From the IMG/VR virus record IMGVR_UViG_3300029787_000321, positions 1-24,259 of that record: a stretch of DNA of 24,259 bases; one strand, given 5' to 3'. The notes under the pieces are model-generated. The model was not told where the DNA came from, searched no databases, and worked only from the letters and a program-made list of their open reading frames with translations. Position numbers and translations under genes: made by a program. The stretch comes from a virus. This document shows, in pieces, positions 1 through 4,028 of this stretch (the stretch's first letter is position 1; the number at the start of each line of letters is the position of its first letter).

Positions 1-632
1 ATCGCGTGGTCGAACTCCACCGCCTGTTCAAACGACGCTGGGTCATTTAGCTTCATGTCTCGCCACATCGCGTCGTTGTGAAACGGACAAGCGACGCAAG
101 CCGACTTGGCTAGTTTGCGATCAACGTAATTCTGCTCAAACCAACGAAGGCAATCTTGGCGCGACATCCCCGCGTCAATCAGCGGCCACCAATTTTGCAC
201 ATATGCAACGCCGCTGGGCTTCATCCGCATTGCTTCGTCAGTTGAAATGCCTATCCACTGACGCACCGAATTTGGTCTTTTTTTAGGGCCAATCAATTCC
301 GCAATTTTTCGGCGTATTGGCACAATTTTGTATTCTCTGGTGCATTGCCTTCGACCAATGCCGGTTTCTGTAAAAAACGGAATTACCGAAAACTTCTGGC
401 CGGTTGAGTTTACTCCAGCCAACGTATGTTCGCGTAGATTGCCTTCAGTCACCCGGTGAACGGGAAACGGTAGCTGCGCCTCAAGCCAATCCAAATGCGC
501 GTAAACTTCTGCCGGTTCCCACTGCGTATCCGCAAATATCGCGCAGTCGGGCATCGGCAGTTCACCATGTGCCGCCATCAGCGCCATGACCGATGACTGC
601 ACACCCGCGCCAAGGCTAATCACATTCAACAT
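1..632 (-). CDS. PAPS-reductase-like PP-loop ATPase family protein (3' end beyond window)
   Basis: The frame is open from an ATG at 632 to the left edge, giving about 210 visible residues. The N-terminus reads MLNVISLGAGVQSSVMALMA, a PP-loop variant (GAGVQSS) of the adenine-nucleotide alpha-hydrolase fold used by PAPS reductases, QueC and DndC. It is followed by a D-A-x-F-A-D-T-x-W-E-P segment, a QCTREYK motif and, near the edge, a SACVACPFH cysteine pair that could bind metal or an Fe-S cluster. This is the phage protein type usually annotated as phosphoadenosine phosphosulfate reductase family; its substrate is unknown. The start overlaps the stop of the transglycosylase-like gene by 7 nt, with a GGAGG about 6 nt upstream, so the two are translationally coupled. 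The gene is last in the visible part of the early operon. Fold is confident. A role in DNA modification with its neighbours is inference only. Confidence 0.85.
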   Translation of the reverse strand, partial: MLNVISLGAGVQSSVMALMAAHGELPMPDCAIFADTQWEPAEVYAHLDWLEAQLPFPVHRVTEGNLREHTLAGVNSTGQKFSVIPFFTETGIGRRQCTREYKIVPIRRKIAELIGPKKRPNSVRQWIGISTDEAMRMKPSGVAYVQNWWPLIDAGMSRQDCLRWFEQNYVDRKLAKSACVACPFHNDAMWRDMKLNDPASFEQAVEFDHA

Positions 633-1267
633 TCGTCATCCTCCACCTCACCCGTGCCGAAGCACCGCTCAAATAACCGCGGTTGATTTGCTATCCGGTT
701 CAGCCACGCAATAACCTGCGGTGTGTACTGATCCGGTTTAAAAGCCAGATGCGTCCCATCAACCGAATTGACGCCAAGCGCATTCGCGGCAGAAATACGC
801 GCCCAACTGTTGACGCGCCCCATGTGAACCCATTTGCCTTGGCGCTTGCCTTCAGCAATCAAATCTGCCGCCGCGCCTGACAGCTTCCACTCAGTGGTGC
901 CGCCGACGAAAAGCGCGTCGAAATCCGGCCAAGGTAAACTGCTAGGCGTCGAACCATCCTGACCCACGAATGCGGCACGGAACCCCAACCCCTGGATACG
1001 CGGCAGCATCGGAACAGCGCGATCTAAAGTGCCGTCAGCGTCTCCGACGACATCAGGTGCGACGGCAAACAGGCAACCAGTTCGCGGATGGGCGTCAAGC
1101 CACTCCAGAAAACCGTCGTCGGTGTACTTGTCGGGCCGCGTAAAACAGCCGTTGTCGCACGCGAAAAGAACGTGGCCATGCTTGCGAGTGTGGTTAGCCA
1201 TGCTCAACATGACCCCGATCTGCGGGTGCGGTTGGATGGGCAACGCTCTGCCGCTAAGATAAATCAC
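626..1267 (-). CDS. tRNA-guanine transglycosylase-like (DpdA-like) protein
   Basis: 213 aa from a GTG at 1267. I read it as a small TIM-barrel transglycosylase because motifs occur in TGT order: CDNGCF at 37-42 (like the DSGGF segment of TGT), VAPDVVGDA at 69-77, FVGQDG at 100-105 (like FAIVQGG), FVGGTTEWKLS at 120-130 (like GGLSVGE), HMGRVNS at 148-154 (like YLMGVGK) and SVDGT at 168-172. D170 is the candidate nucleophile and D38 the second acid. TGT-family enzymes exchange guanine for a 7-deazaguanine; the DpdA branch does this in DNA of phages and of bacterial dpd islands. The gene overlaps the YhhQ transporter gene upstream by 14 nt and the PP-loop gene downstream by 7 nt. It is shorter than bacterial TGT (about 370 aa). 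An ATG about 19 codons in is an alternative start, but the first residues fit the family. Function is inferred from motifs. Confidence 0.6.
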   Translation of the reverse strand: MIYLSGRALPIQPHPQIGVMLSMANHTRKHGHVLFACDNGCFTRPDKYTDDGFLEWLDAHPRTGCLFAVAPDVVGDADGTLDRAVPMLPRIQGLGFRAAFVGQDGSTPSSLPWPDFDALFVGGTTEWKLSGAAADLIAEGKRQGKWVHMGRVNSWARISAANALGVNSVDGTHLAFKPDQYTPQVIAWLNRIANQPRLFERCFGTGEVEDDEC

Positions 1268-1724
1268 GCCGGTTTACCATCCGCCAAACGACGACGGCGC
1301 CAATCAGCTTCGCGACAGTCATCAACGCGCAGCCAAGCCAACTAAAATGGCCGATCATCAGGAGAAACACCGCGCTGTCGAGCGGCGTGCTAACGACACT
1401 CGAAATCAAAATTCGCTGCGCAAACGGTTTTTTGGTGTAGGAATAAACGCCCCAGTCCGCCGCCTCGCTGATTGCAAAAGCGGTGACGCTGGCGACAGCA
1501 ACAAACGGGTCTGCCATCAGGTAAGAAAGAGCGCCAGCCGCCGCCATTGCATACCAGACGCGATGACCGATAGCCCGTTGTGCAAAATCTCGCGCTACGA
1601 AGACCAACCCGACAGCAAGCGACATCGGCGGAAACATTTCGCCCAGCACAGGCACCAGCGGCACAACGCTGAAGCCGTAATTGACCGCGACAATCAACGC
1701 GATGTAAATCGTTGCACTAGTCAT
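1254..1724 (-). CDS. YhhQ/VUT family queuosine-precursor transporter
   Basis: 156 aa. The ATG at 1724 is chosen because AAGGAG lies 7 nt upstream; the frame continues further 5' but that stretch encodes a different small gene. The protein is almost entirely hydrophobic, with about five or six membrane spans. It shows VUT family (Vut_1) landmarks: FVARDFAQR at 42-50 after the first spans, ISEAADWGVYS at 85-95 and STPLDSAVF at 112-120. E. coli YhhQ imports preQ0/preQ1, precursors of queuosine; phage and actinobacterial members are shorter, as here. It would sit in the host inner membrane and raise the supply of 7-deazaguanine base. It overlaps the zinc-ribbon gene upstream by 8 nt and the transglycosylase-like gene downstream by 14 nt, which ties transporter and transglycosylase into one translational unit. 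The family call is firm; the substrate is taken from the family. Confidence 0.88.
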   Translation of the reverse strand: MTSATIYIALIVAVNYGFSVVPLVPVLGEMFPPMSLAVGLVFVARDFAQRAIGHRVWYAMAAAGALSYLMADPFVAVASVTAFAISEAADWGVYSYTKKPFAQRILISSVVSTPLDSAVFLLMIGHFSWLGCALMTVAKLIGAVVVWRMVNRRDLS

Positions 1725-1887
1725 CAGGAATCTCCTTGATAATTTGTTCGACTGGGGCGCCCCAGCCGTTACAAGTTGGGCATTCGATCCAGCGTGTCCG
1801 TATCTCAACCCAGCGGTCAGGGGTGTAGCCGCCAACGGTGTATTCGACTTCGATTTCCCCTTCGCCATCGCAATCGGGACAATTCAT
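1717..1887 (-). CDS. small zinc-ribbon protein, DnaJ-type CxxCxGxG repeats
   Basis: 56 aa, found by reading the gap between the nuclease and transporter genes. It starts with ATG at 1887 in a TGATG overlap with the upstream stop and ends with TAG at 1717-1719, overlapping the YhhQ start by 8 nt. It holds two zinc-knuckle motifs, CPDCDGEG near the N-terminus and CPTCNGWG near residue 37, separated by a short acidic beta-like stretch. This matches the four-cysteine zinc ribbon of DnaJ-like central domains and many small phage proteins. Perfect operon packing on both sides supports it being a gene. No function can be assigned. It might assist one of the flanking enzymes, but that is only positional. 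Confidence 0.75.
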   Translation of the reverse strand: MNCPDCDGEGEIEVEYTVGGYTPDRWVEIRTRWIECPTCNGWGAPVEQIIKEIPDD

Positions 1888-2833: not shown

Positions 2834-3283
2834 CTAGCCGACCCAGGGCGCGGACGACGCCGCCGGGGCCGGTGCTGGAGCGGGTGCTGCGGAGGGAATG
2901 GCCGCAGCCGCCGGCGGGGAGGACGCCGGGAGGTAACCCAAGACTTCGTTGTATTCGGGGTTGTTCTTCTGGATGCCGACGCGGATGCGTACCTGCTTCG
3001 CTAAGAGCTGGTCCGTGTCATCGATCTTCTGCATCCCAAGCACGGACCCGATTGATGACAGGCGCTCTTTCGCGATCTCGACCGCCTTCGGGTTGCTGTG
3101 CCAGAGGTTCAGATTGTCCCAGACCTTGCCCTTCGCGGTCTGGATTTCCAGCGACAGCATGTTCGTGCCGCTGCGCGTTTCCTTGATTTCGCAGGCAACG
3201 ATCTCGCCGTCGTACTCGCCTGCCGGCAGCGGTCCAAACGAAGACGGCTCAACCGCCTCCACCTCAAAATTAAGTTCAACCAT
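2834..3283 (-). CDS. DUF669 family SSB-like protein
   Basis: 149 aa from the ATG at 3283; an ATG three codons earlier is less likely because the chosen start gives an 8-nt overlap with the recombinase stop. The body matches phage DUF669: a short N-terminal strand, PAGEYDGEI, a T-R-S-G-T turn, then DNLNLWHSNPKAVEIAK and a GYLP end to the beta-barrel. The last 25 or so residues are an Ala/Pro-rich low-complexity tail (APAPAPAPAA) ending in PWVG, like the flexible tail of single-stranded DNA-binding proteins. DUF669 genes commonly travel with Sak4-type recombinases and act as their SSB partner. Here it is directly downstream of one. The terminator-like hairpin at 2785-2823 follows. Confidence 0.85.
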   Translation of the reverse strand: MVELNFEVEAVEPSSFGPLPAGEYDGEIVACEIKETRSGTNMLSLEIQTAKGKVWDNLNLWHSNPKAVEIAKERLSSIGSVLGMQKIDDTDQLLAKQVRIRVGIQKNNPEYNEVLGYLPASSPPAAAAIPSAAPAPAPAPAASSAPWVG

Positions 3284-4028
3284 TCTTCTCATCCTTCTGT
3301 GTGATTGCGTTCATCAACGCCGCCCATTCGAGCGGCAGTTCATCGGGGATTTGGTATCGGGTCTTGGCGACGAAGTTGGGACGCGAGGCGCAGCGCAGGA
3401 CGCGCTCACCGCTACCCACGGCTTTGACCTTCTTCTGGCCGAACGACGAGGTCGTTTCGCGGGTGGTCATCTTGTAATTACAAAAGCCGACGACGTCGCA
3501 GAACTCGGTGTAGAGATCGGATGCGCGCTTGTGCAGCTTGATCTCGAAGCGGTCGAACGCTTCCGTCGTCGGATCTTCGAACCGCTTGACCTGGCTATGC
3601 GCCAGCAACACACACGCCATGCCCTTGTCGCGCCGCAACTGCGTGAGCTTGCCCAGCAGTGCGCGGTGGAAAGCGAGCGCCATCACATAGCCCTTGCCGT
3701 ATCCCGCGTCCTCGATGCTTTTGAACTGGTTTTCGTCGCAGACGCTCTTCCAGGTCAGCGCCTCGAACCAGTCCAAACTATCGATCGCGACGACCTTGTA
3801 GTCGTGCTTCTCTTTGATCAGCCCATCAAGCGCGTCCATGACGGCGCCGGTCGTCTCGCATAGATCGAAGCGATCAACGCCGACAACGTCAGCGCCCTCC
3901 TCAGTCGGCACGAAGATCGCGTGCTTGCCGCTCCCGGCTGCAAACGTCGTTTTACCCACGCCCGGTGGGCCGTAGATCAGGATGCGGGGCGGCGCCATTG
4001 CCGTACCGCTGGTGATGTTAAGAGGCAT
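3276..4028 (-). CDS. Sak4-like RecA-fold recombinase (AAA_24 type ATPase)
   Basis: 250 aa. ATG at 4028 with GGAG 6 nt upstream; the open frame extends further 5' but that part is the antisense-like overlap with the upstream gene. Walker A is GPPGVGKTT at 20-28 and Walker B is VVAIDSLD near 79-86. A later LLAHSQVKRF segment corresponds to the strand after Walker B in RecA-like cores. This is the short single-domain ATPase type found in phage recombination modules (Sak4), which promotes ssDNA annealing or strand exchange with an SSB. It overlaps the nuclease-like gene upstream by 11 nt and the DUF669 gene downstream by 8 nt. Family call is strong; biochemical role follows from family and context. 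Confidence 0.85.
   Translation of the reverse strand: MPLNITSGTAMAPPRILIYGPPGVGKTTFAAGSGKHAIFVPTEEGADVVGVDRFDLCETTGAVMDALDGLIKEKHDYKVVAIDSLDWFEALTWKSVCDENQFKSIEDAGYGKGYVMALAFHRALLGKLTQLRRDKGMACVLLAHSQVKRFEDPTTEAFDRFEIKLHKRASDLYTEFCDVVGFCNYKMTTRETTSSFGQKKVKAVGSGERVLRCASRPNFVAKTRYQIPDELPLEWAALMNAITQKDEKNG

Follow-up and report, generated by a model that had tools for sequence, protein, structure and literature searches.

Can a phage that carries no genes for making a 7-deazaguanine base modify its DNA with one that is taken up? The question is raised by a 24,259-base viral contig (hereafter the window, meaning the whole stretch analysed) that appears to be incomplete and belongs to a temperate tailed phage, with recognisable genes for an integrase, a CI-like repressor, tail proteins, an endolysin and a Sak4-like recombinase. 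A first-pass annotation had described in it a VUT (YhhQ-type) transporter gene overlapping by 14 nt the gene for a 213-aa protein resembling tRNA-guanine transglycosylases (TGTs) and the DNA-modifying enzyme DpdA. The ORF coordinates bear out this overlap (positions 1254–1267), with both genes on the minus strand.

An importer gene and a compact enzyme gene in one phage gene run

The pair lies within a tight minus-strand run that comprises, in order, a DUF669/ssDNA-binding-like gene (2834–3292) and a Cas4-like exonuclease gene of the phage recombination module (1887–2765), which are upstream context assigned by profile match; a 57-aa CxxC zinc-ribbon-like ORF (1717–1890); the 156-aa importer gene (1254–1724, ATG at 1724, TAG at 1254); the gene for the 213-aa protein (626–1267, GTG at 1267, TGA at 626); and a PP-loop ATPase/PAPS-reductase-like gene of phrog_424 (3–632). 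A Shine-Dalgarno-like AAGGAG stands shortly before the importer ATG (1732–1737, minus strand). The 57-aa ORF overlaps the importer start by 8 nt and has a homolog in three of the loci surveyed below (L004–L006); it shares the gene run, but nothing ties it to the importer or the enzyme. The PP-loop gene, which had gone unremarked in the first-pass annotation, is cut by the contig end and shares 7 nt with the 3′ end of the 213-aa gene.

As had been stated before, no folE-, queD-, queE- or queC-like ORF is present in the 24-kb window. The conclusion drawn from this, that the base is imported, is weaker than was claimed, since the contig could be only part of a genome, and is strengthened by longer relatives carrying the importer–enzyme pair, in which queC and folE are absent except in Escherichia phage phiG7.

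The importer scores just below the curated cut-off of Pfam Vut_1 (26.1 bits against 27.2; E 1.3e-5), but Vut_1 is matched by all 44 aligned importer homologs, the window copy included (E ≤ 0.001; best 1.5e-14), and the window protein matches phrog_4899 with an E-value of 6.5e-35. On these profile matches, it is a true relative of the Vut_1/COG1738 (YhhQ/QPTR-type) proteins and a predicted membrane importer. An AlphaFold2 model, built from an alignment of the window protein with viral-contig sequences, has a multi-helix membrane fold (pLDDT 95), and nearly all of its best 20 structural matches are S-components of ECF transporters or relatives of vitamin and metal transporters. S-components of ECF transporters are vitamin-binding membrane proteins. 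The best match (Z 10.0, rmsd 3.5, 142 residues) falls under the Z 13 line below which helical proteins call for caution, so that the score of this modelled resemblance is only suggestive, although its consistency across matches is notable. The substrates taken up by characterised Vut_1/QPTR proteins are preQ0, preQ1 or queuine and differ from protein to protein (PMC11130926, PMC5372724), and homologs of the window importer are located within the preQ0 operons of CAjan-like phages.

Predicted fold and motifs of the compact enzyme

The 213-aa protein matches phrog_15826 (E 2e-54), a family annotated in PHROG as of unknown function, and does not match the existing DpdA models phrog_887 and phrog_7068. 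Because phrog_15826 alone matches, we term the protein compact DpdA-like, outside the existing DpdA family. Searches of Pfam and NCBIfam gave no match for it, and Pfam gives none for phage DpdA either; phmmer found nothing among PDB sequences, where a profile of the compact family gave chance matches only. Members of the family are about 200–213 aa long. The first-pass annotation's view of the protein as a distinct small subfamily thus holds, but the family already exists in PHROG, and its actinophage homologs already carry the annotation 'DpdA-like tRNA-guanine transglycosylase'. One further member, in Erythrobacter phage ZS04 (L014, 7893–8534), is annotated as a 'DarB-like antirestriction protein', probably a misannotation.

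The TGT-order motifs that had been picked out in the single protein coincide with columns conserved across a family that numbers hundreds of proteins, and so are not chance resemblances. In an alignment of 69 members, P71, D72, Q103, G122, G123, H148, G150, R151, N153, D170 and G171 are invariant, and D38, G40 and G105 are conserved in at least 90%. Profile–profile comparison (hhalign) relates the compact family to phage DpdA (probability 94%, E 1.4e-7, 140 columns), with the motif pairs DNGCF/DSGAF, GDxxxT/GDPxxT, FVGG/TIGG and SVDGT/SCDSS collinear. In this comparison D38 and D170, the two residues proposed earlier as catalytic, align to the D63 and D206 motifs of DpdA. Both residues are conserved; their predicted place in the active site of the barrel follows from the order of the motifs and the positions of strand ends. 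The CxCxxC zinc motif occurs in none of 165 compact-family members. Comparison of the family with one E. coli TGT sequence by hhalign returned nothing, a result that is uninformative because the same test also missed the accepted relationship between DpdA and TGT.

The structure prediction proposed as a check of the first-pass annotation gave a match to the TGT fold. The AlphaFold2 model of the 213-aa protein (pLDDT 93.3, pTM 0.88) has as its top Foldseek match in the PDB the bacterial DNA preQ0 insertase DpdA (7ui4; E 3.6e-5), and superposes by VIA-align on tRNA-guanine transglycosylase over 195 of its 213 residues (Z 15.7, rmsd 2.7). As modelled, the protein is a TIM barrel of the TGT type. 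Since TGT and DpdA structures score alike, the fold alone cannot choose DNA over RNA as the substrate. The best viral structural match, BFVD A0A0F7L9Z1 from an uncultured marine virus, has 499 aa, over double the length of the compact proteins, and includes the compact domain; its extra part could hint at function.

Importer linkage and its exchange for synthesis genes

To see where else the compact gene adjoins a VUT gene, the survey that had been suggested as a check, we compiled 91 non-duplicate phage loci from isolates and IMG/VR contigs. In 63 of them, including those of phages Aoka, ReqiPine5 and Majeke, an importer gene stands beside the compact gene in the same orientation (47 upstream, 16 downstream), and in 62 of these 63 the two genes touch or lie within about 300 bp of each other. 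In Mycobacterium phage Majeke, where no full DpdA was found, the importer is gene 53 and the compact enzyme gene 54. Queuosine-precursor synthesis genes (queC, queD, queE or folE) are found near the compact gene in 9 of the 91 loci, only one of which also has the importer; importer and Que genes are thus rarely together (Fisher p 3e-4, an indicative value because the rows are related). After single-linkage clustering at 60%, the importer is present in 16 of 30 clusters and synthesis genes in 8. The same alternation is seen in the 36 longer records that contain the compact gene, where 20 have the importer, 7 have QueC and one has both (p 0.03). On a tree of 165 compact-family members, made by a quick method and with many weak forks, the partner switches between importer and synthesis genes at least seven times.

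We considered chance adjacency and rejected it, as importer homologs occur in 89 of 50,697 phage records against 20 of the 36 longer compact-gene records, frequencies that come from searches of differing sensitivity (the window importer as single query in the former, a profile in the latter). Both kinds of supply gene are missing from the neighbourhood of the compact gene in 20 of the 91 phage loci and in 55 of 80 bacterial ones, some of which are short, and reading the neighbours in importer-less loci by eye gave no common partner. A tight Streptomyces clade (L118, L120, L121, L126, L127, L129, L131, L134, L136 and L175) has the compact gene without either kind of partner; two of its members, L120 and L127, have a similar ORF of about 305–314 aa immediately upstream of it.

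In seven loci (L011, L047, L062, L083, L085, L097 and L179) the compact gene adjoins queC and/or queE/queD. Four of these (L062, L083, L085 and L097) lack a FolE match in a search of the whole record, which may be incomplete, and may therefore rely on the host for the first step. Among records with the compact gene, FolE is found only in three phages that have a full DpdA.

The standard phage DpdA profiles (phrog_887 and phrog_7068) find nothing in 33 of the 36 longer records, and 4 of these 33 encode QueC. The phages Sonali, phiG7 and R29Z have the compact protein together with full-length DpdA and preQ0 pathway genes. The phiG7 copy of the compact gene consists of two overlapping ORFs (L015, 13244–13836), either a decayed gene or a frameshift; the SHIN8 copy is likewise in two pieces. 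In Vibrio phage K392 a full DpdA gene overlaps a VUT gene, which is the same arrangement with the longer enzyme. Taken together, the linkage, the exchange of supply genes, the DpdA-free records and the K392 arrangement point to the compact enzyme using a substrate of the same kind as DpdA does, with an interchangeable supply.

Candidate function and relation to known systems

We consider it probable that the compact enzyme is a DpdA-like transglycosylase placing 7-deazaguanines in DNA, that the source of its base can be exchanged, being import in this phage, and that the modified DNA is resistant to restriction. Many phages unrelated to one another share the pairing, and its carriers therefore probably disguise their DNA with an imported modified guanine. 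In the proposed mechanism, the Vut_1 importer would provide the cell, whether infected or lysogenic, with preQ0, preQ1 or queuine from outside, and the phage could thus do without synthesis genes, while for other family members the base would come from phage queC, queD and queE. The 7-deazaguanine base is likely held in the TIM barrel of the 213-aa protein, where D170 (the equivalent of TGT Asp280) would be the nucleophile and D38 (the equivalent of TGT Asp102) the acid/base, and the enzyme would exchange guanine in phage DNA for this base, allowing the DNA to resist host restriction. The identity of the base, its insertion into DNA and the protection from restriction are drawn by analogy from DpdA biology (PMC6884629).

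The compact enzyme might instead act on tRNA or other RNA of host or phage, the imported queuosine precursor aiding translation during infection. Vut_1 transporters are known mainly from tRNA-queuosine salvage (PMC5372724, PMC11130926) and the matches to TGT and to DpdA structures are of similar quality, but we regard action on RNA as improbable: the CxCxxC motif is missing from all 165 members, about 200 residues leave no space for an extra RNA-binding domain, the phage relatives matched by both profile and fold are DpdA-type proteins, and the gene sits in a recombination/replication run. Furthermore, the host of the pair-bearing mycobacteriophages is M. smegmatis, and queuosine genes are reportedly absent from mycobacteria (PMC6884629).

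The presence of full-length DpdA in Sonali, phiG7 and R29Z means that, at least there, the compact protein may do something else. It could be an auxiliary TGT-fold protein and not the inserter, whether it serves as a partner subunit or works in tailoring or salvage, for example as a nucleoside hydrolase that releases the base, and the split gene in phiG7 suggests that it may be dispensable in that phage. For the family as a whole we think such a role unlikely, given the 33 of 36 longer records without standard DpdA profiles (even though 4 encode QueC), the full DpdA that occupies the same place beside VUT in K392, and the conservation of both aspartates. Still further from expectation, and in our judgement very improbable, is that the pair has nothing to do with 7-deazaguanines, with the importer taking another vitamin-like compound and the barrel performing other chemistry. 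The modest Vut_1 score of the window importer and an S-component fold common to many vitamin transporters would fit such a pair, but the alternative neighbours of the compact gene are queC, queD and queE, both profile and fold connect the enzyme with DpdA, and the importer family is found inside CAjan-type preQ0 operons.

As an extension of the favoured reading, that of a DNA transglycosylase supplied by import, the PP-loop ATPase could be the third member of an import-dependent hypermodification cassette, activating and altering the inserted base to give an undescribed 7-deazaguanine derivative; we hold this to be a speculative and rather unlikely extension. The importer, compact and PP-loop genes are consecutive in the window, in ReqiPine5 and in the bacterial loci L108 and L113, and Aoka too has all three. 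Across 170 loci, 15 PP-loop genes lie no more than 1 kb from the compact gene and 7 at 1–5 kb, about sixfold denser near the gene, a count biased upward because some seed sequences were themselves neighbours. The phrog_424 gene stands beside the pair in the window and in L019, L108, L113, L013, L084, L063, L100 and L116. Three Nonomuraea/Thermocatellispora loci without an importer (L161, L164 and L167) have two PP-loop genes, one at the compact gene or immediately ahead of it and the other nearby; the ORFs of L164 also include a DNA-methyltransferase-like one.

A single compact DpdA-like family, tightly linked to an importer that has repeatedly been exchanged for synthesis genes, bears on the base source of phages that encode DpdA only. 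If the favoured reading is true, phage DNA modification would depend on environmental nutrients, phages propagated in the laboratory could wrongly seem unmodified, and an enzyme of about 200 aa would be a handy minimal tool for DNA base exchange.

Among known systems, phage DpdA of the CAjan/9g type (phrog_887) shares with the compact family a profile-level relationship, motif order, association with Vut_1 and preQ0 genes, and occurrence in phages. CAjan DpdA has 306 aa, so that the compact proteins are two thirds its length; there is no direct BLAST similarity between the two, and the compact family forms a separate PHROG and is usually paired with an importer in place of folE-queDEC. The DNA of CAjan, a phage in which the Vut_1 importer family is also present, carries dpdA-dependent dPreQ0, and deleting dpdA abolishes this base and restores cutting (PMC6884629). 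DpdA2 of Vibrio phage nt-1 is also a divergent TGT-like phage enzyme, with a VHM...S.KR stretch recognisable by eye, but it has 464 aa and is encoded inside a preQ0 gene cluster. Given this length and the lack of a match (hhalign probability 0.3% in a low-power comparison with the single sequence, by a method that also missed DpdA against E. coli TGT), we provisionally set aside identity of the compact family with DpdA2. The bacterial DpdA of the dpd island, the top Foldseek match, is a 413-residue chain. Bacterial TGT shares the barrel, yet has the CxCxxC motif that the compact family lacks, and the compact enzyme is a little over half its length (375 aa in E. coli). Similarly, E. coli YhhQ and the window importer share the family match and Asn/Asp positions in an alignment at 21% identity, with 221 aa against 156.

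A 2019 survey described DpdA enzymes, DpdA-only phages and phage-encoded YhhQ; it named uptake as a possibility, left the base source of DpdA-only phages open and found YhhQ uncorrelated with any phage group, and the DpdA-only Mycobacterium phage Orion, grown in the laboratory, had no modification (PMC6884629), which, like the loci with neither kind of supply gene, counts against the favoured reading. We found no description of the compact family–importer pairing in the literature searched, which was mainly open-access, so that an earlier description is possible. DpdA chemistry, DpdA-only phages, phage YhhQ and the compact family as 'DpdA-like' in actinophages were thus already known, and what is apparently new is the conserved pairing of importer and compact enzyme together with the exchange of importer for synthesis genes.
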